Assembly (NCBI GenBank): GCA_012838545.1
Contig: DUPC01000052.1
Coordinates: forward strand, 1 to 51,163
DNA length: 51,163 nucleotides
Source: Acholeplasmataceae bacterium
GTDB taxonomy: Bacteria; Bacillota_I; Bacilli_A; ML615J-28; CAG-313
Reading direction: 5' to 3'
In this document: in pieces, positions 3,375 to 50,092 of the stretch
Layout: each line of letters opens with the position of its first letter
Position numbering within the stretch: the first letter of the stretch is position 1
The notes under the pieces: generated by a model
Seen by the model: only the letters and a program-made list of their open reading frames with translations
Told to the model about the DNA's origin: nothing
The model's database searches: none
Position numbers and translations under genes: made by a program

Positions 3375-4286
3375 TTATCGAAAATTTTTCAATTTGCCAT
3401 TGATAAAATCCCGCGCGGTTATGACTTTTCCTCCCGGGAGTTGGAGTTCCAAAATATCAATCGCCGAATTATTCCCACAGGAAATGGTAAAGTAATCTTT
3501 GCCTACATGGGTAATTTCCCCGTATTGATTTTTGGGCGTAAGACTGCTAATCCTCATTTTATGGATTTTAATCTTTTGTTCCTTTAATACCAAAAAAGGT
3601 ACCGGTTCAGGCATTAAAGCCCGATAACGGTTATAGACATCCCGTGCTCCTTTGGTTAAATCCAGTTCTTCGTCGCTTGGTGTTAAATTGTAAGCAAAGC
3701 TTACTTCGCTGGGGTTCTGAGGAACGGGTTTAATCTTACCTTCAATTAATAAAGGAATTGTTTCCATAAGTAAATCACGCCCGAGGATGCTGAGTTTAGC
3801 AAAAAGCGTGCCGCTGGTATCAGCGTCATCGACGAAAAGTTCCCTTTGGGCAAGAATATCTCCTGAATCCATCGCTTTTTCCATGTACATGATAGTAATG
3901 CCAGTTACTTTATCGCCATTAATTAACGCATGTTGAATCGGGGAACCGCCACGATATTTGGGGAGCAAAGAGGCGTGAACATTAATAGCCCTATGGCGGG
4001 GAACCTTTAAAATCGCTTCCGGAATAAACTGTCCATAAGCTGCTGTCACAATCAAATCCGGTGCTAAATCTTTAACCAATTGGGTAATTTCTTTTACCTT
4101 TTCCGGTTGCACAACCGGTAAATTGTTTTCTTGGGCAAATACTTTTACCGGCGGAGGGGTTAAAACTCTTTTTCGACCTACCGGTTTATCCGGTTGGGTT
4201 ACTACTAAAACAACTTGATATTTTTGGGATAATGCTTCAAGAATCGGAACACTGAATGGTGGTGTCCCCATAAATACTACTTTCAT
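3375..4286 (-). CDS. fmt: Methionyl-tRNA formyltransferase
   Basis: Adds a formyl group from 10-formyltetrahydrofolate to the initiator Met-tRNA. The 303-residue length is normal. The N-terminal formyltransferase domain has the start MKVVFMGTPPFSVPIL and the active-site blocks NVHASLLPKYRG and MDSGDI, which carry the conserved Asn, His and Asp. The C-terminal third is the tRNA-binding domain. It starts 9 bases after the priA stop with a GAGGTTGAA site before the ATG. The priA-fmt pair is common in low-GC bacteria; the def gene usually found between them is absent here. Confidence 0.96.
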   Translation of the reverse strand: MKVVFMGTPPFSVPILEALSQKYQVVLVVTQPDKPVGRKRVLTPPPVKVFAQENNLPVVQPEKVKEITQLVKDLAPDLIVTAAYGQFIPEAILKVPRHRAINVHASLLPKYRGGSPIQHALINGDKVTGITIMYMEKAMDSGDILAQRELFVDDADTSGTLFAKLSILGRDLLMETIPLLIEGKIKPVPQNPSEVSFAYNLTPSDEELDLTKGARDVYNRYRALMPEPVPFLVLKEQKIKIHKMRISSLTPKNQYGEITHVGKDYFTISCGNNSAIDILELQLPGGKVITARDFINGKLKNFR

Positions 4287-4295
4287 TTCAACCTC

Positions 4296-6623
4296 TTAAA
4301 CTATATATTTTGGATATTTATCAAAAATAATCGTAAACCGTTCATCCTGCCATGTACGGTAAATCCTTTCATACAAAGCTTGCATGGCTTTGCTTTGGTG
4401 TTTGATAATCAATTGCACCGCTTGTTCGCGTTTGTTGTATGATGGACCAATGACTATAATCGGCCCCCGAATCGACTGTTGTATCGTTCGCTTTATTGTA
4501 TGAGCCATTTGAAAGATTTGTTGGAACGGCCCCTTAACCAAAATCCGATTGATTTTATAAATTGGTTCAACCTTTAAAGCTTCCCGTTTCTTTAATTCTT
4601 CGTTAAAGAAGGTTTGATAATCTCCGATGACGGCTTGAACCAAAAACGGCATCGCTTTATCATAGGTTTGAACGATTAGTTCGCTTCCCGGGGAAGTAAG
4701 TTGCAATTTAGCATGTTCCATCATCGTATAAGCTTGATAGTGGGCATCAAAGCGTTGTGCTTTGGCAATTAAATCTATTAAGACTATCGCAACAAGCGTG
4801 ATATTCCGATGATTCAATGAGCGCGAAAATAAGTCCGTGGTAATAATGATATCCACATCCTGATTATGGATTTTATCCATAATTGTTTCGTAATCCTCGT
4901 AAGCGGATCCTTCCAAAAGGGAAATTCGGGCATTAGGCAACACATCCAAAATTGCTTCTTGCATTTTTTCCATTCCTAGACCAACATGACGGATATACTT
5001 GCTGCCGCAGTTAGGGCAACTTTGGGTAAAGACATAGTGTTTATTGCATAATGGACAAATAAGCGTATTTGGGTCCTTATGATAACGCATCGGAAAGGCG
5101 CAACGGTCACAATCAATAGTTTTCCCACATTCGCGACACATGATAAACTGGCTGTAACCTCTGTTATTTAGAATTAACAGGGCGCATTTGTTTGTTGTAA
5201 TATGTGCTTTTAAGGATTGAATTAAGGCGCGGGAAAGCGGTGACTTATGACCCGATAGCAGTTCTTCTTTCATGTCTGCTATTGTTATCGGTAAATCATC
5301 GTAACCGTTTCTTTTTTCCAATAATAAGAACTGTTTAACCAATGCTTCCGCATACATCTCCACGGTCGGAACGATTGAATGGTAAACAATTGGCACTTGC
5401 CAAATATTTGCCCGTTCTCTCATGACTTTGGTTAAAAGAAAACGCGGGCTTTGTTCGTTTCTGTATAACAAACTATCGCTATTCATCATTACAACCAAGC
5501 CAACATTTTGGAAAGGGAACAGAGCGGAAAGCGATGTCGTGACAATTACCGAATAATTGTCTTCAACAATCATCTGGTAATAATCATACATTTCTGCATC
5601 ACTTCTATCGCTGTTTAAACAAGCAACTTCCAGTCCCGTCACTTTGGTTAAAAAGGAACTGATTTGATAACTGGAAAGAATATCCGGGCAGACAACAATC
5701 AGGTTTTTGCCTGCTCGTTGCGTTTTTTCCACCATCAAGGCCAACATTGTGTCTTCCTCTTGGCGATTATGAGGAATCCATAATACTCTTTGCGGTTCGG
5801 AAAAAATCCGATTGACTTTTTCTTCATGATTAAGTCGGTCTTCCGGACTGAGATTGTATAAACGAATTCCTTCAATGGTGCGATTTTTTATTCGGGAGAC
5901 TTGTTTTGTTTTTTCAATTAAATAACCCTCTTTTACCAAACGATTGATGGCGTACCTAGTAACGCCAAAGCGTTCGACAATTTCGTCAATACTTAATGCT
6001 TCTCTTTCTCTATGTAGAAAATTTAACAAATCAATTTCCGCGGGATTTTTAAAATATTCAATATTATCGTGATAATTGTTTTCATTGATTTCAAAAGTCT
6101 TGACGGTTCTAGCGCCACCCATGGCATTGGCATCATAAACCACTTCCAAATTACCTGCTTTGATTTCCCGCATAATGGCGCTTTGATTTGGAAGGATAGA
6201 GGTCCACTTAATCCTAGTGCTTCCGCCAAAAAGGCTGGCAATATTGGCATCTATATCTAATAGGTTTTTGGCAAGCAAGTATTTATGCGTTTTTAAACGC
6301 ATGAAACGTGGAATCATCAAATTAAGGATTCTTACCATTGGCGATAAGGTATCTTTTTTGACGTAATCGGCCAGTTGGAAAAGTTCTGGGGAAATCACAG
6401 GATTTAAATCCAATATATCGACGATTTCTTTTATTTCGCCTTGAAATTGTGATTCTTCGTTCAACTCCCAAACATAACCTAATATTAAACGATTGGAATC
6501 GCCAAATGGAACCTTTACTCTTACGCCAACCTGGGCAAGAGGAATGAGATGTTGGGGAACAATATATTCATATTGATGATCAGTATTGCTGCTGGAAATA
6601 TCAACAAACACCTTAGCGAACAT
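4296..6623 (-). CDS. priA: Primosomal protein N' (PriA) lacking helicase motifs
   Basis: PriA reloads the replicative helicase at collapsed forks. This 775-residue copy keeps the N-terminal DNA-binding domain (MFAKVFVDISSSN onwards), a winged-helix-like segment around 195-240, and all eight zinc cysteines (about 496, 499, 505, 508, 523, 526, 536, 539). The ATPase is ruined. Where GVTGSGKTEVY should stand it reads RVLWIPHNRQEED (about 279-291), the DEEH box is MNSDS (about 380-384), and the QVAGRAGR motif VI has become MEHAKLQLTS. The reading frame is intact, so this is a maintained non-helicase form, as known for actinobacterial PriA. Start: the GTG at 6629 overlaps the AGGAGG site, so the ATG at 6623 is correct. 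First gene of its operon. Confidence 0.9.
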   Translation of the reverse strand: MFAKVFVDISSSNTDHQYEYIVPQHLIPLAQVGVRVKVPFGDSNRLILGYVWELNEESQFQGEIKEIVDILDLNPVISPELFQLADYVKKDTLSPMVRILNLMIPRFMRLKTHKYLLAKNLLDIDANIASLFGGSTRIKWTSILPNQSAIMREIKAGNLEVVYDANAMGGARTVKTFEINENNYHDNIEYFKNPAEIDLLNFLHREREALSIDEIVERFGVTRYAINRLVKEGYLIEKTKQVSRIKNRTIEGIRLYNLSPEDRLNHEEKVNRIFSEPQRVLWIPHNRQEEDTMLALMVEKTQRAGKNLIVVCPDILSSYQISSFLTKVTGLEVACLNSDRSDAEMYDYYQMIVEDNYSVIVTTSLSALFPFQNVGLVVMMNSDSLLYRNEQSPRFLLTKVMRERANIWQVPIVYHSIVPTVEMYAEALVKQFLLLEKRNGYDDLPITIADMKEELLSGHKSPLSRALIQSLKAHITTNKCALLILNNRGYSQFIMCRECGKTIDCDRCAFPMRYHKDPNTLICPLCNKHYVFTQSCPNCGSKYIRHVGLGMEKMQEAILDVLPNARISLLEGSAYEDYETIMDKIHNQDVDIIITTDLFSRSLNHRNITLVAIVLIDLIAKAQRFDAHYQAYTMMEHAKLQLTSPGSELIVQTYDKAMPFLVQAVIGDYQTFFNEELKKREALKVEPIYKINRILVKGPFQQIFQMAHTIKRTIQQSIRGPIIVIGPSYNKREQAVQLIIKHQSKAMQALYERIYRTWQDERFTIIFDKYPKYIV

Positions 6624-6786: not shown

Positions 6787-9700
6787 TTACGGTTTAATTT
6801 CATGCATTTCGTCAGTTGTGCTTTCAATGTCAATATTTTCCTTTTCCACTAGCCCCGTTCCTGCCGGAATTAAACCACCAATAATGATATTTTCCTTGAG
6901 ACCGTCAAGAGTGTCAATCTTACCACGAATGGCCGTAGCAGTTAAGACTCTAGTTGTTTCTTGGAAGGATGCAGCAGAGAGGAAGGAATCAGATTTGAGT
7001 GATGCTTGAGTGATGGAAAGCAGAACCGGTTTCAAGACCGGAAGTCGTTTGCCTTGATCAAGCATCTCTTTGATTGCTTGATATGCTTTCGGTTTCGAGA
7101 TTAAAGAACCTGGCAATAGGTCAGTATCTCCTTCGTCCAACACCATAACTTTTTGTAACATTTGATGAATAATGATTTCAATGTGTTTATCCGAGATAAG
7201 AACCCCTTGAGAACGATATACCTTTTGAACCTCTTTCAAAATATAGCGTTCAACATTAGGTACATTGGTTACTCTAAGTAGTTGAAGAACGTGAACAAGT
7301 TCGCTATCAGCGGTGATTAAATCACCGGCTTTGATTTCTTGTCCCACTTTAAGTTCCGGTTTTTTTCCACTGTCGGTTAAGTATTCTTTGCTATTGCCTT
7401 CAATTGGGCTTTCAATGATTACTTGGAAACGATTGTCCGGTTTGGGATTGATTTCCTTAACGCGACCGTTGACTTCCGAAATTAGTTCGGTAAACTTAGG
7501 GTCTTTAGGAGCCAAGAATAAGAGCTTGATTCGAGGGAAACCTTGAACGATATCATCACCTGCAACCCCACCGGAGTGGAATGTTCTCATCGTTAATTGG
7601 GTACCAGGTTCACCGATTGATTGGGCAGCCACAATACCGACAACTTCGCCGCGTTCGACAATCTCACCAGTCGATAAATCGGATCCATAACATTTAACGC
7701 AAACACCGTTGTGAGCGTCACATGTCAAGACAGTTCTGATTTCCACTTGTTTGATTCCGGCATTAACAATCTTTTCCGCAATCTCCTCCGAAATAAATTG
7801 ATTTCGGTCAATAATCAGTTCACGGTTTTTGCCATAAACCGGTTTGGATGTGAAACGACCGACAATACGTTCATACAATTTTTCCACAACCGTACCGTCT
7901 AAAGAAACGAAATCCTCAACCACCATGCCTTTATCGGTATGGCAATCATCGATAGTTACGGTTACGTCTTGGCTTACGTCAACCAACCGACGGGTTAAGT
8001 AACCTGCTTCGGCTGTTTTCAATGCGGTATCGGTTGAACCTTTCCGTCCGCCGTGGGTGGAAATGAAGAATTCCGACATCGACATACCTTCCCGAAAGGA
8101 TGATTTAATTGGAATTTCCATCGGTTCCCCATTAGGTTTAGCCATTAGCCCCCGCATTCCCGCAAGCTGCGTAAAGTTCGAAGCGGAACCACGCGCACCG
8201 GAATCGGCCATCATAAAGATGTCATTGGTTGTAGCGTTTTCGGACATGACCCTCTTGATTGCTTTTTCGATTTCGTTCCGAGCATTGGTCCATTCTTGTA
8301 AAACATTACGCTTACGTTCTTGGTCGGTTGTCAAACCTCTTCTGAACATGGAATTGTAACGTTTAACGTTGTCTTCGGCCTTTTTGATGATTTCTTGTTT
8401 GTCGGCAAGAACATCGACGTCAAAAGCGGAAATGGTAATACCTGCCACCGTCGAATACTTAAAGCCTAAGTCTTTCATTTGGTCTAGAGCCCTCGAGGTT
8501 TCGGCCAATTTTTCTTTCCGGAAGATTTCCGAAATAATTGAACTCAAGAACCGTTTCTTGAATGGTTCGTTTAACGGCATTTTAGCAATGATTTGCTGAA
8601 TGGAGTTACCGTTTTTCAAGTCATGTGGGTCGATAAAAAACTTTAACGGTGTTGCTTTGGTTAAATTTTCTTGTGTTGCTTCGTTGACATATGGGAAAGA
8701 TTTTGGGAATACCGTATTGAAAATAATCTTTCCATATGTGGTTACGATATACATGCGCATGACTTTTTCGGTATGTTCAAGGTTCTTTTCGTAGTTTTCG
8801 TCATTTGGATTCAACCAAGCAAACGGACGTCCAAGCGCTTTAGCAGGTAATACGATTCTCGTTTGTAAGGTAATTTCCTCGTTTTCATAAGCCGTTTCTA
8901 CTTCGGCGATATCCTTAAAAGTTCTTCCTTCTTTGTCGGGAAAAGACCGTTCAATGGTTAAATAGTAGTTTCCGAGAATCATGTCTTGGGATGGGGTAAC
9001 AACCGGTTTACCGTCACGTGGAAGAAGGATATTCTTGCTGGCAAGCATTAAAAGTCTTGCTTCAGCTTGAGCTTCTTCCGATAGCGGTACATGCACGGGC
9101 ATTTGGTCGCCGTCGAAGTCCGCATTAAACGCTGTCGTTACCAATGGGTGAAGCCTAATTGCTTTCCCTTCCACAAGTTTCGGTTCAAAGGCTTGAATCG
9201 ACAATCGGTGAAGCGTTGGCGCACGGTTCAAGAGCACTGGATGTTCGACTACAATTTTTTCCAATGCTTCCATGGCTTCCGGAGCACCGCGTTCGATTAA
9301 TTCCTTAGCTTTTTTGATACCTGATTTAGTATTGGATTCCGGATTGCTGAGTTGTTCTTTTTTGCGCAAATAATTAATGATGAATGGCTTAAAAAGAATT
9401 AAGGCCATTTCGCGCGGAATACCACATTGGTACATCTTAAGGTCTGGTCCGACAACGATAACGCTGCGTCCGGAATAGTCAACCCGTTTACCAAGAAGGT
9501 TCTGACGGAACCGTCCTTGTTTTCCTCTTAGTAAATCCGATAGCGACTTTAATGGGCGGTTTTTGTCAACCACAACTTTCTTGTTGCGTTTGGAGTTATC
9601 AAACAAAGCATCGACTGCTTCTTGAAGCATCCGTTTTTCGTTCTTGACAATTAGTTCCGGTGCCCGTTGCTCGAACTGTTTCTTTAAACGGGTATTACGG

Positions 9701-10503
9701 TTGATAATCCGACGATATAAGTCGTTAAGGTCAGTGGTAGCGAACCTGCCGCCATCGAGCTGAACCATAGGACGAAGATCAGGCGGAATAACCGGAATAA
9801 CGTCCATAACCATCCATTCCGGTTTATTTCCGGATTGCAAGAATGCTTCTACGATTTCCAAACGTTTGATTAGATTCTTGCGTTTTTGTTTGGTTGCTAT
9901 CTTTATCTCTTGACGAATCTTTTTTGACAACTCTTCAAGGTTTAAGTTTTGCAATAGAAACTTAATCGCTTCTGCCCCAGTCTTTGCTTGATACTTGAAC
10001 ATATATTGACGTTTGTATCTGCTGTGTTCTTGTTCGGAAAGAATCATTCCGACTTTTAGTCCTTCGATTTCTTCGTCCATGTCGGTAATAATGTATGAAG
10101 CAAGATAGATGATATCATCGGCGTCGCGTGCCTTCATGTCAAGGAGTGTGGCAATCCGGCTCGGAACATTTCGATACCAAATGTGAACAACCGGTGCAGC
10201 CAAAGCAATGAAGCCCATTTTTTCGCGGCGCACTTTGCTTTCGGTAATCTCTACCCGGCATTTTTCGCATATTTTGATATCGGAACCGGATTTACGGGAT
10301 TTGCCGCAGGCGCATTGATAATCTTTCGTTGGACCAAAGATTACTTCGCAAAAAAGCCCATCGCGTTCAGGTTTCAAGGTCCGATAATTAATGGTTTCGT
10401 GTTTTTTAACTTCACCATAAAAGTTATCTTCTTTTCGGTAAGCCCAACTGCGGATTTCCTCAGGGGAGGCAATACCTACTTGAATATATTTATATTTCTT
10501 CAA
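6787..10503 (-). CDS. rpoC: DNA-directed RNA polymerase subunit beta'
   Basis: The 1238-residue beta' subunit. The N-terminal zinc site is C64, C66, C79, C82. The catalytic magnesium motif is [12 protein letters not shown] at about 460-471 with all three Asp present; the usual residue after QM is Ala, here Pro. The second zinc site ([13 protein letters not shown]) and the trigger-loop block [16 protein letters not shown] follow. Start: the codon is TTG. An in-frame TAA is directly before it, AGGAGG stands 9 bases upstream, and conserved residues begin at once ([20 protein letters not shown]), so no ATG is available. It begins 16 bases after the rpoB stop and is followed by a terminator. Confidence 0.98.
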
Positions 10504-39290: not shown

Positions 39291-41702
39291 TTATTTTACT
39301 TTGGTTAAATGCCAAATGCGTTTGACATAATCCTCAATGCTGCGGTCGGCTGCAAACCGTCCCGCTTCACTGATATTGATTAACGACATTTGGTTGAAGC
39401 GTACTTCGTCTTGATATACTTGGTCCATCAATTGATGGGCTTTCATGTAACTATCGAAGTCCGCAAGACACATATATTGGTCAGCTACTCCCCAGTGGGT
39501 GAGTAAATAATTTGCTATGTTCTCGAAACTCTTGCCAGAAAATCCTTTCTTGAGTGCACCTATAACCTCGCGGATTTCCCGGTTATTGTTGTAATAAAAA
39601 GTGGAATTGTAACCGGCTTTCCATAAGTCGTTGACTTCTGGAGCAGTTAAACCGAAAATAAAGATATTATCGTCTCCCACCGCATCGCAAATTTCCACAT
39701 TGGCGCCGTCCATCGTACCAATCGTAACCGCACCGTTAATCATGAATTTCATATTGCCGGTGCCGCTTGCTTCTTTTCCGGCAAGCGAGATTTGTTGGCT
39801 GATTTCACTCGCAGGCATCAATTTTTCCGCCATTGTTACATTATAATCTTCCAAGAAGACCACATTGAGTTTCTTTCTAATTTCCGGATGCTGATTGATT
39901 TCCTTGCTTAAGAAACTTATTAATTGAATAATCTCTTTGGCAACATAATAACCCGGTGCCGCTTTGGCTCCAAAAATGAAGGTTTGCGGGGTTAGGTTAA
40001 GGTCCGGATTTTCTTTTAATTGATTATATATGTTGATAATCTTTAAGACATTCAATAGTTGCCTCTTATATTCGTGAAGTCTCTTCACTTGCACGTCAAA
40101 GCGGGTTTCCGGATCCAAACGAATGCCTTGCTTTTGGAAAACATAGTCCGAAAAAGCAACTTTGTTTTGGTACTTGATTTCCTTTAAGCGCTTTAATACC
40201 TCAAGGTCATTTTCAAAAGCGCGGAACTTCTTTAGTTCGCTGGCATCATGATAATAACCGTGTCCGATGGTTTCATCGAGCAACTCTGCAAGCAACGGAT
40301 TGGATTGATTGAGCCACCGCCGGTGGGCGATTCCGTTTGTTACATTAGTGAACTTTTCCGGTGTCAGTTGATAGTAATCGTTAAACAGCGTCCTTTTAAT
40401 GATATCGCTATGTAAAGCCGATACGCCGTTTACCGAAAAACTGCCGACTACGCTTAAATTTGCCATCCGAATTTGATGATTGGCAATAATCGCCATTCGG
40501 TTGATTTTGTTCCAATCGCCAGGGAATTTTTCCCAAAGCATATGGGAATAGCGTTGATTGATTTCCTTGATTATTTGGTATATCCTTGGCAGTTCTTGGG
40601 CAAACAAGTTCTCATCCCACACCTCAAGGGCTTCCGCCATTACGGTGTGATTGGTATAAGCCACCGTGCTGGTGACCATATGCCAAGCATCTTCCCAACT
40701 GAACCGATAATCGTCCATTAAAATGCGCATCAGTTCTGGGATGCAAAGCGCGGGGTGCGTATCATTGATATGGATTATCGCATATTGACTCAAGGTACGC
40801 AAATCTTGATAACGCTTTAAATGATCCGCGATGATATCCTGAATTGAAGCGCTGACTAAGAAATACTGTTGTTTTAGACGCAAACTTTTTCCTTGAGAAT
40901 GGTCGTCAGACGGATAAAGCACTTTGGATATCAATTCCGCCTCATGGCTGGCTTGTAAAGCTTTAAGGTAATCGCCTTCAGAAAAAGACTTCATATCAAA
41001 TTTAGCCAAACTCCGTGCTCGCCATAAACGTAAGGTCGAAATGCCTTCCGAGTCTCCTCCGGATATCAACAGATCATACGGGACCGCTTCCACTTCGTTA
41101 TAGTCCTGGTATTCGACGCGCATATGCCCTTCTTCAAAGCGTTCGTTTACCCAACCGTTAAACTTAACGGTTTTGATTCGGTCGCTGCGCGGAATTAACC
41201 ACACCTCGCCGCCAGGAAGCCAAACATCGGGAACTTCCGTTTGCCAACCGTCAACCATTTTTTGTTTGAATAAACCGAATTCATAACGAATCGAAAAACC
41301 AGTGGCCGGATATTGCAAACTGGCCAGGGAATCCATGAAGCAAGCAGCGAGTCTACCCAATCCCCCGTTGCCTAGTCCGGCATCCGGTTCTTGTTCATAG
41401 AGGTCTTCAAGAGAAAACCCAAAACTATTTAGGGCATTTTGGTAGGCTTCAGCAATTCCCAAATTATATAAATTAGTCTTCAGAGAACGCCCGACTAAAA
41501 ACTCCATGCACAAATAATAAACCCGTTTAGCTTTATTTGCCTTTACCTTGCGATTAAATTGTTTCTTTCTTTCCATCAGCAAATCGAGGACCGATAAACT
41601 GACTGCTTTATACATTTGTTCCAAAGTAGCCTCTGTCGGCAAAACGCCAAAATAATGGGCTAATTTATCCTCGACGTTTTTTTTAATATTATTTTCTGTC
41701 AT
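39291..41702 (-). CDS. glgP: Glycogen phosphorylase
   Basis: 803 residues, glycogen/starch/alpha-glucan phosphorylase, releasing glucose 1-phosphate. It begins with the helical region, then RVYYLCMEFLVGRSLKTNL and DAGLGNGGLGRLAACFMDS. The pyridoxal-phosphate site is EASGTGNMKFMINGAVTIGT, whose Lys binds the cofactor, followed by DGANVEI. FGAKAAPGY and QVKRLHEYKRQLLN are the substrate-binding blocks. It follows glgA by 32 bases with AAGGAGAACC before the ATG. Its product feeds glycolysis through pfkA, the next gene, after a mutase not seen here. Confidence 0.97.
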   Translation of the reverse strand: MTENNIKKNVEDKLAHYFGVLPTEATLEQMYKAVSLSVLDLLMERKKQFNRKVKANKAKRVYYLCMEFLVGRSLKTNLYNLGIAEAYQNALNSFGFSLEDLYEQEPDAGLGNGGLGRLAACFMDSLASLQYPATGFSIRYEFGLFKQKMVDGWQTEVPDVWLPGGEVWLIPRSDRIKTVKFNGWVNERFEEGHMRVEYQDYNEVEAVPYDLLISGGDSEGISTLRLWRARSLAKFDMKSFSEGDYLKALQASHEAELISKVLYPSDDHSQGKSLRLKQQYFLVSASIQDIIADHLKRYQDLRTLSQYAIIHINDTHPALCIPELMRILMDDYRFSWEDAWHMVTSTVAYTNHTVMAEALEVWDENLFAQELPRIYQIIKEINQRYSHMLWEKFPGDWNKINRMAIIANHQIRMANLSVVGSFSVNGVSALHSDIIKRTLFNDYYQLTPEKFTNVTNGIAHRRWLNQSNPLLAELLDETIGHGYYHDASELKKFRAFENDLEVLKRLKEIKYQNKVAFSDYVFQKQGIRLDPETRFDVQVKRLHEYKRQLLNVLKIINIYNQLKENPDLNLTPQTFIFGAKAAPGYYVAKEIIQLISFLSKEINQHPEIRKKLNVVFLEDYNVTMAEKLMPASEISQQISLAGKEASGTGNMKFMINGAVTIGTMDGANVEICDAVGDDNIFIFGLTAPEVNDLWKAGYNSTFYYNNNREIREVIGALKKGFSGKSFENIANYLLTHWGVADQYMCLADFDSYMKAHQLMDQVYQDEVRFNQMSLINISEAGRFAADRSIEDYVKRIWHLTKVK

Positions 41703-41734
41703 TGGTTCTCCTTCATTTCTAGTTACTTTATTTT

Positions 41735-43174
41735 TTATTGTTTTAAAACTTGCTCATACATTTTAAGATATTCTTTGGCGGATTTCGTCCAACCGAAATC
41801 AACCTCCATAACTGTTTTGACTTTTTTCATCCAACCATCTTGGTCTTGATAATCACTCAAAGCGCGTTTTACGGTTGATAGGAGCGCGCTTGGACTGTAT
41901 TCTGCAAAAGTATATCCGTTTCCGTTTTCAAGGTTAAAATCTTTAATGCTGTCGGCTAATCCGCCGGTTTCGCGCACAATCGGAACCGTTCCGTAACGCG
42001 AAGCTATCATTTGGGCCAAACCGCACGGTTCGGATTTCGATGGCATTAAGAAGATATCGCTGGCGCCATAAATCTTGCGCGACAAATCTGGATTATAAGC
42101 AATGATAACGCGCAATTTCGAACCGAACTTGTTTTCTAAGTCCTTGAAATATCCTTCAAAATGAATGTCGCCTGTTCCCAGCATGACTATTTGGACTTTT
42201 TCCACCAGTAATTCTTCCATCATGCCTTTAACAAGATCTAAACCTTTATGGGATACAAGTCTGGATACCATGCCGATTAAAGGTATAGTTTTATCAACCG
42301 GCAAATTCAGCATTTTTTGCAATTCAACTTTATTTTCTACCTTATTTTCTACGCTTTTTTGATTATAATTCACAAACAAGGCCCGATCTTTGGATGGACT
42401 ATAGAAGTGTTTGTCAATACCGTTTAAGATGCCCACCAACTTATGTTTAACCCGTTCAACTTCATGTTCTAAACCATGAGCATATTCAGGCGATAAGATT
42501 TCTTTGGCATAGGTCGGGCTAACCGTTGTCACGATATGCGATGTTTCCATTGCACCTTTCATAATATTGCTTGAGCCTTTATACTCAAGCAAATGGCTGT
42601 CAAAGTGTGAAATGCCAAAAGTATCTTCCAAAACATCCAAATCATTTGAGAAAATGCCTTGGTACTCAATGTTATGAATAGTGAAGACAAACTTTGTGCG
42701 GGTAAAAACCGGATTATCCCCATAATGGGTTCTTCGATATACCGGTACCAAACCAGTTTGCCAATCATGACAATGGACAATATTCGGTTTTAATTCCAAG
42801 AATAAAATGGCATCAAGACTTGCTTTGGCAAAGAAGGCAAAGCGTTCACCGTCATCAAAATAGCCATAAAAATTGGACCGTTTGAAATAATATTCGTTAT
42901 CTAAAAAATAATAAGTTACGCCTTTGGATTCGTATTTGAATATGCCGCAATACTGTTTGCGCCAAGCAAGTTGAACCGTCATTTGTCCCACATAGAGGAG
43001 CTTGTTGCGCCAAACGGGATTAATTTTAGAATAAAGCGGTAAGAGTACGCTTACACTCGCTTCGCTGGCGCTGGCAATCTTTTGAGGGAGCGAGCCAATG
43101 ACATCGCCCAACCCACCCGATGCAAAGAAAGGTTGACACTCAGAAGCTATAAAAACAATTTTTTTATCTTCCAT
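41735..43174 (-). CDS. glgA: Glycogen synthase (ADP-glucose)
   Basis: 479 residues, GT5 family, transferring glucose from ADP-glucose to the growing chain. N-terminal FIASECQPFFASGGLGDVIG corresponds to the usual KTGGL(A/G)DV: Ala-Ser replaces Lys-Thr, the Lys that binds the sugar nucleotide in E. coli. Other blocks (HCHDWQTGLVPVYRR, GILNGIDKHFYSP, MVSRLVSHKGLD, PSKSEPCGLAQMIASRYG) are intact. It lies nine bases after glgD with AAGGAGG before the ATG. The Ala-Ser form probably still works; I note it because of the known role of that Lys. Confidence 0.95.
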   Translation of the reverse strand: MEDKKIVFIASECQPFFASGGLGDVIGSLPQKIASASEASVSVLLPLYSKINPVWRNKLLYVGQMTVQLAWRKQYCGIFKYESKGVTYYFLDNEYYFKRSNFYGYFDDGERFAFFAKASLDAILFLELKPNIVHCHDWQTGLVPVYRRTHYGDNPVFTRTKFVFTIHNIEYQGIFSNDLDVLEDTFGISHFDSHLLEYKGSSNIMKGAMETSHIVTTVSPTYAKEILSPEYAHGLEHEVERVKHKLVGILNGIDKHFYSPSKDRALFVNYNQKSVENKVENKVELQKMLNLPVDKTIPLIGMVSRLVSHKGLDLVKGMMEELLVEKVQIVMLGTGDIHFEGYFKDLENKFGSKLRVIIAYNPDLSRKIYGASDIFLMPSKSEPCGLAQMIASRYGTVPIVRETGGLADSIKDFNLENGNGYTFAEYSPSALLSTVKRALSDYQDQDGWMKKVKTVMEVDFGWTKSAKEYLKMYEQVLKQ

Positions 43175-43183
43175 ATTACCTCC

Positions 43184-44305
43184 TTAGACCATGACATTTT
43201 TTCCTAAATAATAAGGAATGGTTTCACATCCGGACAAATTGCGGCGGTCGCGAATGGTGACATTTTTATCGGCAATCACACAATTCAAATAAACATGTTC
43301 GCCGGTAATCGTATCCTGCATTAAGATAGAATTTTCCACAACCGTGTTTTTGCCGATTTTAACTCCTCTAAAGAGGATGCTGTTGCGTACCGTTCCTTCA
43401 ATCACGCATCCATCCGCAATATAACATCTTTCCACCACCGCGTCTTTTCCGTATTTGGTTGGTGCGGAATCGCGAACTTTTGTATAAATCGCTTGATTTT
43501 TTTGTTCAAATATTTGCGCCCGGATTTCCGGATTTAGGAGTTTCATGTTGTTGGCAAAATAATTTGCCAAAGAACTGATGTGTAAGTATGGTCCCTCATA
43601 TTCCGAAGCGCAAATGCGCAAGAACGGAATATTATGAAGAATGATATCGCGTTCAAAGTTGCTTGCGCCATGAGCTAAGGCTTCATCGATTAAATTGTAC
43701 AACAACTTGCGTTTGATAACCCAGGCATTGACCGACATGTTAGCGGTGGTTCCCGAGTCGCTCGTTAAAGCGGCGGCAGTTACGCGGCCAGCTTCGTTGA
43801 TTGTTAAACTCATATGAGGATGCAAATCCGGTGTAACCTCTGCTTTCCGGTAAACTACTGTGATATCCGCATTCCTTTCCTCATGTTCTTGGATTACTTT
43901 ATGATAGTCGATGACATTTACGCTGTCGCAATCAATCATCAGAACATATTCTTCGTTTGCTTTGGCAATAAAGCCCATCAGACCTTTTATCGCTTCCAAA
44001 CGATTGGCATATAAACTGTCGCTTCTGTGATTGCCAAAGGGCGGAAAAATGGTAACTCCGCCGTTGCGACGCGATAAGTCCCAGTCTTTACCGGAACCGA
44101 TGTGGTCCATCAAGGATTGATAATTGCGTTTGGCAATAATGCCAACCCGGGTAATCCCGGAATTCACCATATTGGACAAAGCAAAATCAACTAACCGGTA
44201 TCTTCCCCCAAAAGGAACCGAAGCAAGCGTACGATACCGGGTTAATTCATCAACCGTATCGGTATGTAGATCTGAAAAAATAATTCCTAGAGCTCGCATG
44301 AACAT
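43184..44305 (-). CDS. glgD: Glucose-1-phosphate adenylyltransferase, GlgD regulatory subunit
   Basis: 373 residues. Nucleotidyltransferase fold with [21 protein letters not shown] and, near the C-terminus, left-handed beta-helix hexapeptides ([20 protein letters not shown]). The AGGxGxRL nucleotide-binding loop of the catalytic subunit is replaced by IIFSDLHTD, so this is the non-catalytic GlgD, which with GlgC makes a more active complex in Bacillota. The start overlaps the glgC end by 19 bases; the ATG at 44305 has AAGGA at five bases, and another ATG two codons in is possible. Confidence 0.92.
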
Positions 44306-45513
44306 TTATTTCCTTTCCGAGAGTTTTGATCAGGTTCTTCGATATTGGCGCCGGCGGGAATAATTGCTTTTTCCTTGATTACCACATGGCGTCCAACTAC
44401 GGCAATTCCCACCGATTCGGCTTTTACAGCTCCGATGGTTGCGCCTTTTTCAATGTGAACTTCTTCGTCGATTATGCTGTAGAAGACTTTGGCACCTTCG
44501 TGAATAACACTATTGGAAAAGATTACGCTGTCTTTGACATAAGCGCCTTTTTCAATTTTGACGCGGGGACCGATAACACTGTTGATTACGGTTCCTTCGA
44601 TGGTTGCGCCCCCAGAAACGAGCGAATTAACAACCTGAGCATGTTCGCCAATGAAATGGGGTTGTATGCCGATATTCCGGGAATGAATCCGCCAATAGGG
44701 GTCGTAAATGTCGAATTTCGGATCATCGCCAATCAAATCCATATTGGCGCTCCAAAGACTTTCAATAGTTCCTACGTCTTTCCAATAACCTTTGAATGGA
44801 AATGCAACCATCTTTTCGCCACAAGCCAGCATCGTTGGAATAATGTTTTTGCCGAAATCTTTTTGCGAACCTTCGGTGGCTTCGTCTTTCTTTAAGTAAC
44901 AAGCCAATTTTTCGGTTTTAAAAATATAAATACCCATCGATGCTTTCGTCGACTTAGGTTTAGCGGGTTTTTCTTCGAACTCATAGATGATATTATTATC
45001 ATCGGTATTCATGATGCCAAAACGGCTGGCTTCATCCAAACTGACTTCCAAAGTCGCGATGGTGCAATCAGCATCCTTCTCAATATGATATTGAAGCATT
45101 TCCGAATAATCCATCTTATAAATATGGTCTCCGGAAAGAATCAACACATATTCGGGATCGTAACGTTCAATAAAATGAAGGTTTTGGTAAATCGCGTTGG
45201 CAGTACCTTTGTACCAATCGGTCCGGTTTTTGGCTTGATAAGGCGGCAAAATGTGCACACCGCCAAAATTTCGATCTAAGTCCCAAGGCAAACCATTGCC
45301 GATGTACTCATTCAAAAGGAGCGGTTGATATTGGGTTAAAACTCCCACGGTATCGATATTCGAATTGGTACAATTTGAGAGCGTAAAATCAATTATGCGA
45401 TATTTGGCTCCGAAAGGAACAGCGGGTTTGGCGATGGTTGTGGTCAAAGCTTTTAATCGGCTGCCTTGCCCTCCCGCAAGCAACATCGCAATACATTTCT
45501 TTTTGTTATACAT
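44287..45513 (-). CDS. glgC: Glucose-1-phosphate adenylyltransferase, GlgC catalytic subunit
   Basis: 408 residues making ADP-glucose from ATP and glucose 1-phosphate, the committed step of glycogen synthesis. It has the catalytic loop [46 protein letters not shown] and [10 protein letters not shown] with the metal-binding Asp. The C-terminal third is a beta-helix. The ATG overlaps the glgB end by eight bases and has AAGGAAAG before it. Confidence 0.96.
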
Positions 45514-47335
45514 CTTTCCTTTTTACCTTCCTATAATATATTCCACAAAGTGGTGGCAAATCAAGTTTCATTCGGTTGTTTTGGATTTTAACTTTTTTAG
45601 GAATGGCATCGAATTCTCTGGTTGCTAGGATTAGTTCGTATTGACCGTTATCAATATTAACCTCATAGCCTGGCCAACCGATGCCAGAGAAATTGCAAAT
45701 TACCAAGATATCGTCATGTCTTGGGCTTAAGCGTAAATAAGAAAAAACATTATGGTCTGCATCATCAGAATTAATCCAACGAAAACCGTCCCAAGAAGTA
45801 TCGTTTTCGTGCAAAGCCGGATATTGCAAATATAAGTGATTCAAATATTTAACATAAGTATGTAAACCTTGATGGTTTTCATATTGCAAAAGCAACCAGT
45901 CAAGTTCTTGACGTTCATTCCATTCGATAAACTGACCGAACTCATAACCCATGAATGTCAGTTTCTTTCCGGGATGGCTCATCATATAAGCCAAGTAAGC
46001 TCTTATGCCAAAAAACTTGTCTTCGTAACTGCCAGGCATTTTATTTAAAAGCGATTTTTTGCCATGGACCACTTCGTCATGCGATAAAGCCAAAATAAAA
46101 TTTTCGGAAAAAATATAAGTCATTTGAAAAGTTATTTTATGATGCAATGCTTTACGATAGATTGGATCATGGGAAAAATACGTTAAGGTATCGTTCATCC
46201 AACCCATATTCCATTTAAAGTCAAAGCCTAAGCCGCCATCTTGAACCGGTTTTGTAATATCCGGAAAAGTCGTTGACTCTTCCGCTATCGTCAACACACC
46301 GGGATAATATTCATGAACGACTTGATTCAGTTTTTTGATAAAGGCTAAAGCTTCCAAATTGATGTTGGTTCCCAAACTGTTGGGGTGCCACTCGGTACGA
46401 TCAAAGTCTAAGTATAGCATCGACGCCACCGCATCCACCCTCAACCCGTCGACATGGCATTCTTCCAATAAATACATGGCGCTGGAAACCAAAAAACTTT
46501 GAATTTCCGGGCGTCCGTAATCGAAACAGCGGGTGCCCCAACTTTGGTGTTCGCGTCTGGTTGGGTCAAGATGCTCATACAGGTAAGAACCGTCAAACTC
46601 AATCAGTCCATGGGCATCTTTTCCAAAATGTCCCGGAACCCAATCGACAATGACGCCGATTCCAGCCTGATGGCAGATGTCAACAAAAGCTTTAAAATCG
46701 GCAGGAGTACCATAACGGGAAGTAAGTGAAAAAAAGCCCGTGACTTGATAACCCCACGATTCATCCAAAGGATATTCAAAAACCGGCATAATTTCCAAAT
46801 GGGTGTAGCCCATTTCTTTGGCATACTTACTTAATTCATATCCGAGTTTGCGATAATCAAAAACATTTCCATCCGCATACCTGCGCCAAGAACCTAAATG
46901 AACTTCATAAATATTCATCGGTTTTTGGAGGTGCGAAATAGTTTTTCGCTTTTCCATCCATTCGTCATCTTGGAATCGGTAATTATCCAAATTATAGACT
47001 TTGGAAGCTACTTTGGGCCTAAGTTCCGAGTGATAGGCAAATGGATCGGATTTATAAATCCACTTCTTGTTTTTGGTTAAAATCGCATATTGATAATGAG
47101 CGTATTCCGACACCTCGGGAATAGTTATTTCCCACAGACCTTCCTTGGTGATGCGTAGCATTTGATGGGAGAAAAGATTCCACTCATTGAAATCGCCCAC
47201 TACATGAACTGCCTGAGCGTTGGGTGCCCAAACTCGGAAAGTGGTGGCTTGGGGAGTGTACTGCGCTCCCATAAATCGATAACTGAAATAGTTGGTTCCT
47301 TGATGAAATAAATAAATCGCTAAACTATTATCCAT
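45506..47335 (-). CDS. glgB: 1,4-alpha-glucan branching enzyme
   Basis: 609 residues. An N-terminal CBM48 domain ([21 protein letters not shown]) precedes the GH13 barrel with DWVPGHFG, the nucleophile region [16 protein letters not shown], the acid-base region EESTTFP and [13 protein letters not shown]. It introduces alpha-1,6 branches into glycogen. It is the first gene after the promoter at 47354-47382 and begins the glg operon. Length is typical (Bacillus about 627). Confidence 0.96.
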
Positions 47336-47414: not shown

Positions 47415-48440
47415 TTATTCAATTAACATGCAATCGCCAAACGAAAAGAATCGGTATTCGTTCGCGATGGCGTTTTTATAGGCGTTTAACATTATTTCTT
47501 TGGTGGCAAAAGCTGAAACAAGCATTAATAGAGTCGATTTAGGCAAATGAAAGTTTGTCATTAAAGCGTCAACAGCTTTAAACTCATAAGGCGGATAAAT
47601 ATAAATATCCGTTTCCCCGCTACATGCCACAAACTTACCGTACTTTTGCATGATAGTTTCGAGCGTTCTGGTAGAAGTTGTACCGACGCTTACAATCCGT
47701 TTACCTTGTTTTTTGGCTTCATTTAGGATTCGAGCGGTCTCTTCGGGCATGTAAAAATATTCCGAATGCATGTGATGTTCTTCTACAAAATCGCTTGTTA
47801 CCGGGCGAAATGTTCCTAGTCCGACATGCAAAGTGACATAGCAAATCGTCACTCCCTTGGCCTTTAAACCTGCCAAAATTTCTTGGGTAAAATGTAGACC
47901 GGCGGTAGGAGCCGCAGCGCTGCCGTACTCATGAGCGTAAACCGTTTGATAACGTGATTGGTCGTTTAAGGTTTTTCGGATATAGGGAGGTAACGGCATA
48001 GTACCGATTTTTTCCAATATTTCCACTAAAATCCCTTGGTAAGCAAGTGCAAAAACCCTGATGCCTTCTTCCTTTTCTTCTAAACATGTGGCATTTAAAA
48101 GGCCGTTCCCAAAGGAAATAACGGTTCCTTTTTTGATGCGTTTGGCGGGTTTGGTTAAAGCTTCCCAAGTATCTTTTTTAATTTCTTTAAGCAAAAGCAC
48201 TTCAACTTTCGCCTTGGTGTCTGTCTTTTCGCCATAAAGTCTGGAAGGATAAACTTTGGTGTCATTGATTACCAACAAATCGTTTTCGGTTAACAATTCT
48301 CCTATTTGGTAGAAGTATTTATGTTGAAATTCCCCCGTTCGGCGCTTTACCACCATTAAACGCGAATCGCTTCTTTTGTCAAGCGGTGTTTGCGCAATTA
48401 AGTGCGGGGGAAGATAATAATCAAATTCATCAACTCTCAT
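47415..48440 (-). CDS. queA: S-adenosylmethionine:tRNA ribosyltransferase-isomerase
   Basis: 341 residues, making epoxyqueuosine from preQ1 at the wobble base of certain tRNAs. It begins [24 protein letters not shown] and contains [17 protein letters not shown] and THLPKST-like [16 protein letters not shown]. The ATG overlaps the ruvB stop in ATGA, indicating coupled translation. ruvB-queA is the usual low-GC order; tgt, which normally follows, is not found here, and glgB begins instead. Confidence 0.96.
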
Positions 48441-49441
48441 AGCAATCCTCCCCGTGTGATACCTAAATGATTATAGGCTTTTTCGGTTGCGACTCTACCT
48501 CGAGGGGTGCGGAGAATAAAGCCTTCTTGTAAAAGATACGGTTCGTTGACATCTTCCAATGTTACCGTTTCTTCGGAAATCGTGGCCGATAAAGCATCGA
48601 GTCCGACCGGTCCGCCATGGAAGCGTTCGATTAAACAAAGCAAATATTGGCGGTCCGTTTGATCCAAACCCGCTTTATCAATATTGAGTTTATCAAGCGC
48701 ATATTCGGTCATCGCGAAAGAAATGCTATCCTCTTGGTGATATTGCGCAAAATCGCGGATGCGCCGAAACAACCGATTGGCAATTCGCGGGGTTCCTCTT
48801 GAACGTCTGGCAAGCTCAAAACTGGCATCATCATTAATCGGGAAATTAAAAATACGCGCTGTACGGTTGATAATTTGCCTTAGTTCCAAAACGCTGTAGT
48901 AATTCAATTGATGTACGATGCCGAAGCGGTCCCGCAGGGGTGAAGTAAGGTCACCAAAACGGGTCGTTGCCCCTACAAGGGTAAAAGGGGGAAGTTCAAT
49001 TCGCAAAGTTTGCGCACTGGAATCTTTCCCGTAAATAATATCAATCACATAATCTTCCATTGCGGAATAAAGCATTTCTTCCACAATTTTGGGAAGCCGA
49101 TGGATTTCGTCGATAAAAAGCACATCTCCGGCATCCAAGCTTGATAAGATTGCAGCAAGATCGCCCGGTCTGGTTAAAGCCGGACCCGTGGTTACTTTGA
49201 TATTGGTACCCATTTCGCTGGCAATAATATAAGCTAAAGTCGTTTTGCCCAGACCCGGAGGGCCATATAAAAGCACATGGTCAAGACTTTCTTTGCGTTG
49301 TTTTGCGGTGGAGATGTAAATGGTTAACATTTCTTTCAAGGCCGTCTGTCCCACATACTCGCTAAGCCATTTGGGCCTTAAAGTCTGTTCCACTTCGTCT
49401 CCTTCTATAGCTTGTTGATTTAATAACTTTTGATCCATCAT
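48437..49441 (-). CDS. ruvB: Holliday junction branch-migration ATPase RuvB
   Basis: 334 residues, AAA+ motor of the RuvABC complex. Walker [16 protein letters not shown], Walker [10 protein letters not shown], sensor and arginine finger [18 protein letters not shown], and C-terminal winged helix ([12 protein letters not shown], then [13 protein letters not shown]). It is followed by queA with a four-base overlap. Unlike usual ruvAB operons, ruvA is on the other strand and reads away. Confidence 0.97.
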
Positions 49442-49478
49442 TATAAAAAGTCCTTTCTTTTATTATGATTGTTTCGAC

Positions 49479-49506
49479 TTACTTTTATCAGGGAATATGA
49501 TATAAT
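49479..49506 (+). promoter_or_regulatory. Promoter of ruvA
   Basis: TTACTT (49479-49484), a 16-base spacer and exact TATAAT (49501-49506) with a TGn extension. GAGGTG follows before the ruvA ATG. Only 84 bases separate the ruvA and ruvB starts, so this promoter and any ruvB promoter share the same short region; I saw no convincing ruvB promoter. Confidence 0.7.
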
Positions 49507-49525
49507 TGATAACAGAGGTGTTAAT

Positions 49526-50092
49526 ATGTATCGTTATATCAAAGGTGAAATCACACAAATATCCGGAACCGACATCACTATTGAATGTTATGACATCGGT
49601 TATATGGTGCGCGTTCCCAATCCTTACCAATTTACCATAGGCAGCAAAATCACCTTACATTTATATCAACACGTTCGCGAGGAATCAATTGAATTATTCG
49701 GATTTGCAACCCCGGAAGAACGAAACATCTTCCTTCGTCTCATAAACGTCAAAGGTTTGGGTCCCAAAGGGGCGCTTGCCATCCTTGCCAGCAGTACACC
49801 CGAAGAACTCGTTAAGGCAATTGAAGCCGGGAATCCGCGTTACTTCAACGCTTTTCCGGGAATTGGTCAAAAAATCAGCCAACAAATCATTCTTGATTTA
49901 AAAGGCAAATTAAGATTTGATGACTCACAAGGTCCGGTCAGTCCGCGATTAGCGGATGTTGAATCTGCTTTAAAAGCTTTGGGATACAAAACAACCGAAA
50001 TACGGGCAGCGACAAAAGACTTATCCTTGGATGACCAAACTACAACAGGAGAACTTGTCAAAATCGCCCTTCGGCGTTTATCTAAAAATTAA
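49526..50092 (+). CDS. ruvA: Holliday junction DNA-binding protein RuvA
   Basis: 188 residues. The OB-fold N-terminus is YRYIKGEITQISGTDITIECYDIGYMVRVP. Two helix-hairpin-helix motifs follow (INVKGLGPKGALAILA and FPGIGQKISQQIILDLKGK). The C-terminal helical domain that contacts RuvB begins near ADVESALKALGYKTTEI. I chose the ATG at 49526, which has AGAGGTGTTA before it; the open frame extends 57 bases upstream through the promoter. It is the only plus-strand gene in the window and is divergent from ruvB. Confidence 0.96.
   Translation: MYRYIKGEITQISGTDITIECYDIGYMVRVPNPYQFTIGSKITLHLYQHVREESIELFGFATPEERNIFLRLINVKGLGPKGALAILASSTPEELVKAIEAGNPRYFNAFPGIGQKISQQIILDLKGKLRFDDSQGPVSPRLADVESALKALGYKTTEIRAATKDLSLDDQTTTGELVKIALRRLSKN

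Follow-up and report, generated by a model that had tools for sequence, protein, structure and literature searches.

The window analyzed here, a stretch of 51,163 nucleotides from an Acholeplasmataceae bacterium, carries a priA-type gene whose product has lost its ATPase and helicase motifs; the other parts of PriA are retained, the gene is under purifying selection, and the genes of its predicted partners are present. On the evidence of sequences and of a structural model, this orthologous PriA has very probably become a pseudohelicase, which would recognize forks and hand them over to DnaD and DnaB. The loss extends to the whole order of gut bacteria to which this one belongs.

Identity and context of the gene

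The frame is as originally predicted, intact at 775 codons, and lies on the minus strand (Table 1). Its ATG (6623–6621) is immediately preceded by a ribosome-binding site, AAAAAGGAGGTGCCT, within which an alternative GTG two codons further 5′ falls; its stop codon is at 4298–4296. The 775-residue product matches the Pfam family PriA_3primeBD (PF17764) with 72 bits and the NCBIfam model NF004066 over residues 4–744 with 360 bits (E = 2e-107), less than the curated cut-off of 813, and its TIGR00595 score (244.5 bits) lies above the cut-off of 230. PRK14873 models, which we take to represent actinobacterial PriA, give at most 145 bits against the 360 bits of NF004066, so that the PRK14873 group is neither the best match of the window protein nor, we infer, its source. 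Altogether, the protein displays full-length similarity to PriA, the 3′ DNA-binding domain, a cysteine-rich region with eight cysteines that are invariant in 36 members of the order and, in the predicted model, the overall PriA fold; functional SF2 helicase motifs I, II and VI are missing. As a helicase-derived protein with degenerate motifs, encoded by a gene retained under selection, it resembles the PriA pseudohelicase of Deinococcus radiodurans.

The gene neighborhood points in the same direction. Proximity of priA and fmt is usual in Firmicutes and thus supports orthology, and rpoC and priA are also adjacent in three other genomes of the same family (G001, G002 and G004). The window gene is the orthologous priA of its genome.

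Table 1. Coordinates of the priA-type gene, its main segments and its neighbors in the window
Feature	Positions	Strand	Basis or remark
priA-type gene, putatively helicase-dead PriA, 775 codons + stop	4296..6623	(-)	ORF and profile matches
3′ DNA-binding domain (PriA_3primeBD), kept	6309..6614	(-)	92% of conserved columns retained order-wide
Winged-helix/MarR-like segment, between 3′BD and helicase lobe 1	5928..6047	(-)	
Motif I (Walker A) position	5742..5783	(-)	LWIPHNRQEEDTML in place of LLHGxTGSGKTEVY
Motif II (DEEH) position	5475..5486	(-)	MNSD
Loop after motif II	5439..5465	(-)	YRNEQSPRF; Tyr and Pro invariant, 36/36 order members
Cysteine-rich region, two zinc sites	5007..5138	(-)	8/8 Cys kept
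Motif V position, eroded	4800..4850	(-)	IIITTDLFSRSLNHRNI
Motif VI position	4695..4724	(-)	MMEHAKLQLT in place of LTQVAGRAGR, both arginines gone
C-terminal domain	4299..4568	(-)	3/3 columns conserved in intact PriA retained in 36/36
Methionyl-tRNA formyltransferase (fmt), adjoins priA downstream	3375..4286	(-)	Named by reading the translation
rpoC, adjoins priA upstream	6787..10503	(-)	

Degeneration of the helicase motifs

We aligned 95 PriA sequences from the genomes analyzed with E. coli PriA (NC_000913) and drew a consensus from the 47 that are intact. Scored against these and the E. coli protein, every catalytic motif of the window protein quoted here is altered: (i) in motif I, LLHGITGSGKTEVY of intact PriA gives way to LWIPHNRQEEDTML, the core reading IPHNRQEED where intact PriA has GxTGSGKT; (ii) in motif II, (V/I)DEEH becomes MMNSD; (iii) in motif III, LGSATPSL becomes YHSIVPTV; (iv) in motif V, ILIGTQMxxKGLDFPDV becomes IIITTDLFSRSLNHRNI; (v) in motif VI, LTQVAGRAGR becomes MMEHAKLQLT (QVAGRAGR to EHAKLQLT). 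The original prediction had quoted the strings at the Walker A, DEEH and motif VI positions and counted eight zinc cysteines. The strings prove correct, with motifs III and V eroded as well, and the alignment bears out the cysteines, all of which are kept (E. coli C436, C439, C445, C448, C463, C466, C476 and C479). Since phmmer, MAFFT and Foldseek concur on the flanking blocks, no alternative register restores the motifs, and the possibility that intact motifs lie in another register is ruled out.

Copy number and distribution in the order

A wrong register is one form of a wider objection, namely that the degenerate protein is an artefact or a paralogue and that a normal priA lies in the missing 4% of the genome. 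The window genome (1.71 Mb, 96.4% complete, 0% contamination) was searched with the TIGR00595 profile for a second priA; none was found, PriA being single. Further matches of this profile, in frames of 1152, 678 and 697 codons, are taken to be Mfd, RecG and a UvrB-like protein from their size and the region matched. In favor of the objection are the incompleteness of the genome and the additional intact PriA of one relative (G344). However, all 39 genomes with a PriA match, among the 43 of the order, have a low-scoring copy (218–306 bits, as compared with at least 380 bits in sampled genomes with recognizable motifs I and VI), and a second copy was found in G344 only. The intact priA of G344 (L167, G344:C34) is alone on a 3.5-kb contig and 58% identical to the PriA of a distant family, and the assembly, which also carries the dead PriA, has 6% contamination; it is therefore probably a contaminant, otherwise a recent acquisition. 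With the register fixed by three methods, we regard a paralogue or artefact as scarcely credible. As to the four genomes of the order without a match in this census, one (G024) has PriA pieces on two contigs and the remaining three are fragmented or incomplete assemblies. No match was found in viral contigs.

Retention and selection across the order

The loss of motifs originally noted is real, but it spans the whole order rather than one bacterium. Functional motifs I, II and VI are absent from each of the 36 near-full-length PriA sequences of the order, whereas the eight cysteines are present in every one, as are R625, P632, G674, P675 and a lysine at 694 (E. coli numbering). Intact PriA has 114 columns with a conservation of 90% or more. 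Three quarters of the order still keep 38 of the 64 that lie outside the motifs, but 6 of the 50 that belong to motifs I, Ia, Ib, II, III, V and VI (Fisher p = 2e-7, the columns not being fully independent). Two other regions, the linker motif W186/R187/Y190 of E. coli PriA and the stretch close to the SSB-tail site at the C-terminus, carry no usable signal, their columns varying too much even in intact PriA.

Could the site have been rebuilt so that it binds nucleotide and the protein still works as an ATP-dependent switch? Many members of the order do have acidic residues close to where motif II would lie, and both lobes are intact in the model. Residual motif-like residues also occur (Lys at K230 in 14/36, Glu at E322 in 24/36 and Arg at R584 in 7/36), never accompanied by the P-loop glycines or threonine or by R587 of motif VI. 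The latter residues are absent from all 36 proteins, however, and the substitutes differ between species. Hence a non-canonical ATPase of this kind appears very unlikely, although some residual or non-canonical role in nucleotide binding may exist.

The pattern of divergence raises another possibility. In intact PriA, lobe 1 (49% identity) is better conserved than the 3′BD (38%). A comparison of the two families within the order gives the inverse, 23% for lobe 1 and 40% for the 3′BD, lobe 1 having become the fastest part. Lobe 1 has conserved features of its own, such as YxNxQSPR(Y/F) in family f1 in the loop after motif II, whose tyrosine is kept and whose proline is invariant despite the loss of the motif; from its position, this is presumably the aromatic-rich loop of E. 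coli PriA. Both the free divergence of lobe 1 and these features of its own speak for a scaffold that has acquired a new function and left fork restart, for example as an origin factor or an SSB-bound sensor of DNA structure. But the protein has the DNA-binding, zinc and C-terminal parts of an ordinary PriA, the partners DnaD and DnaB and the SSB tail persist, and the gene neighborhood is that of the ortholog, which makes such a change of function improbable.

The gene might finally be a pseudogene in progress, PriA function being no longer needed and the frame merely persisting. The eroded catalytic motifs would fit, as would the result that two mycoplasma-like families of the same class (f5 and f16) gave no PriA match. 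Against decay, nearly all members of the order have full-length frames (742–811 aa), the cysteines and C-terminal residues are invariant, and PriA is present in nearly all good genomes, the gaps coming at least partly from fragmented assemblies such as G024. Moreover, dN/dS is well below 1 in every measurable pair of the order: 0.09–0.18 in the six closest, reaching 0.38 among those further apart, for which dS is less reliable, some pairs being saturated. Because the same state is found order-wide under purifying selection, the window PriA is not the result of chance decay; the pseudogene explanation is largely refuted by this selection and now highly improbable.

Predicted structure and partner genes

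An AlphaFold2 model of the window protein, built from an 18-row alignment, has a pLDDT of 86 and a pTM of 0.83, with both helicase lobes predicted intact. No part of this alignment was sufficiently conserved to serve for a scan. The nine best Foldseek matches in the PDB are all PriA; the first is E. coli PriA bound to a fork and PriB (8fak, TM 0.85 by target length), and ADP-bound Klebsiella PriA comes behind (TM 0.65). The likeness of the model to the fork-bound form may reflect either a real preference or an accident of modeling.

DnaD/DnaB-type proteins of about 210 and 430 codons were found in 40/40 relatives, mostly as two separate matches, and the SSB tails of the sampled genomes end in DLPF or DIPF (DDDLPF or similar). 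A DnaI_N domain was detected in three of the 12 genomes tested, including that of the window, a result that we count against the restart mechanism proposed below. The genomes also encode RecG-like, Mfd-like and PcrA-like proteins, the PcrA-like helicase in 7/7 genomes tested, below the strict cut-off of its family. The sequence data fit both alternatives of the original prediction, restart through DNA binding and protein contacts only or with the help of another helicase.

Recurrence of the loss

An RpoC tree unites families f1 and f2 (support 100/100) and places the Acholeplasma-like genus g52, which seems to include the cultivable Acholeplasma laidlawii, inside family f10, beside genera with intact PriA. 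Like the window protein, g52 PriA (L071–L074 and L108) lacks motifs I, II and VI. It differs from the window protein in having lost four of the eight cysteines (E. coli C445, C448, C463 and C466), that is, exactly one zinc site, and in keeping motif Ia (LVPE) and GTxMALK of motif V; dN/dS for the closest g52 pair is 0.06. In the PriA tree the order and g52 also stand apart, with g52 within f10 (SH-aLRT 99), although a tree that constrains them together is not rejected at the 5% level (AU p = 0.074). Had the dead forms arisen only once, several f10 genera would need to have regained the motifs. The RpoC tree, together with the intact motifs of the other sampled f10 genera, therefore implies separate losses, one on the stem of this order and one in g52. 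The loss was originally suggested to be separate from those already known; its place on the stem of the order among Bacilli/Mollicutes relatives agrees with this, as does the far better score with NF004066 than with PRK14873.

A further independent loss has probably occurred in G234 (family f19), whose degenerate PriA (L106; 685-codon frame, 134 bits) forms a long branch, whereas the PriA of other sampled f19 genomes exceeds 500 bits. Family f15 is midway: L076, L077, L103 and L104 have GVSASGKT, GVVSSGKT or GKAASGKT at motif I and DEAQ, DECH or DDAH at motif II, with motif VI mostly kept, and their sister L105 keeps GITGSGKT. The erosion of f15 PriA is partial, with the protein perhaps still active, and this family could show in which succession motifs are lost. 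Genome reduction by itself cannot account for the loss, as the motifs persist in genus g126 (L107), whose genomes are small. Two genomes that are 96–97% complete (G057 and G067; family f9, genus g37) gave no PriA match, and a sister genus (G046) has an intact PriA.

We put forward tentatively, as a generalization with somewhat less than an even chance of being right, that PriA ATPase has been lost repeatedly in this Bacilli/Mollicutes branch (on the order stem, in the Acholeplasma-like genus, probably in G234 and, still under way, in f15) with the loader pathway kept. In bacteria with DnaD and DnaB, the restart protein could then become an ATP-independent fork platform, possibly locked for good in the open, fork-bound form to which the model comes closest.

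Proposed mechanism and relation to known systems

As a pseudohelicase, the dead PriA would recognize abandoned forks and D-loops through its 3′-end-binding domain, its winged helix, the two-lobe helicase scaffold and the zinc-bearing cysteine-rich region, the SSB tail bringing it to the fork. It would then recruit DnaD, which together with DnaB, and with a DnaI-type loader where present, would reload the replicative helicase. The canonical site would neither bind nor hydrolyze ATP, and the protein would be unable to unwind the nascent lagging strand; forks that need clearing would be prepared by another helicase, of the RecG or PcrA type, or else restart would take place only where the lagging-strand template is already single-stranded.

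E. coli PriA devoid of ATPase activity (K230R or K230A) still assembles primosomes, and the ATPase is dispensable for PriA–PriB restart in vivo (PMC10175261, PMC4504706); these are, however, laboratory point mutants of an otherwise intact helicase, unlike the window protein. The PriA of B. subtilis attaches to branched DNA and brings in DnaD and DnaB (PMC13220808). Taken together, these results make an ATP-independent platform for fork recognition and loader recruitment the most likely function. The B. subtilis and S. aureus proteins belong to the same orthologous family as the window protein and share its predicted partners (DnaD, DnaB and the SSB tail), but they are ATPases, and DnaD strongly stimulates the ATPase of S. 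aureus PriA (PMC4909229), so that this activity might be expected to matter in DnaD-type bacteria. A catalytically dead, retained PriA, as originally proposed, is nonetheless the reading that the evidence best supports.

The original prediction took as its precedent actinobacterial PriA, which it described as lacking helicase activity. The precedent demonstrated biochemically is rather Deinococcus radiodurans PriA, a pseudohelicase that binds forks and neither hydrolyzes ATP nor unwinds (PMC4504706); what stands of the actinobacterial parallel is that PriA there is smaller and very divergent (PMC1193525), the window protein being divergent too but fitting NF004066 far better than the PRK14873 group. 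As in Deinococcus, the full PriA architecture is combined with degenerate ATPase motifs. The Deinococcus protein, however, has a K-to-R change in Walker A and a poor motif II, whereas in the window protein the whole P-loop, DEEH and motifs III, V and VI are replaced; furthermore, its host has DnaD/DnaB-type loaders and belongs to a different phylum, and the loss has an independent origin.

With Deinococcus as the proven precedent, the PriA pseudohelicase is a kind already known. New here are the lineage, a loss that is deep, more complete and repeated in relatives, and the family in which erosion is half-way. Among the papers searched, we found no report of a PriA pseudohelicase in Bacilli or Mollicutes, which is no proof of absence. 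It is an open question why the helicase motifs of PriA persist almost everywhere when mutants devoid of the activity survive (PMC4504706). The motif-less order, the second loss in g52 and the family midway provide natural replicates for learning what renders the activity expendable: compensating genes can be sought by comparing motif-bearing with motif-less genomes, and dead PriA proteins separate the platform role from the unwinding role.

Other gene arrangements in the window

Two further arrangements were noted in the window. Positions 39291–47335 hold a compact run of genes that reads as a glycogen operon (phosphorylase, synthase, two GlgC/GlgD-like proteins and branching enzyme). The ruvB (48437–49441, minus strand) and ruvA (49469–50092, plus strand; named by reading its translation) genes lie head to head with 27 bases between them and form no ruvAB operon.
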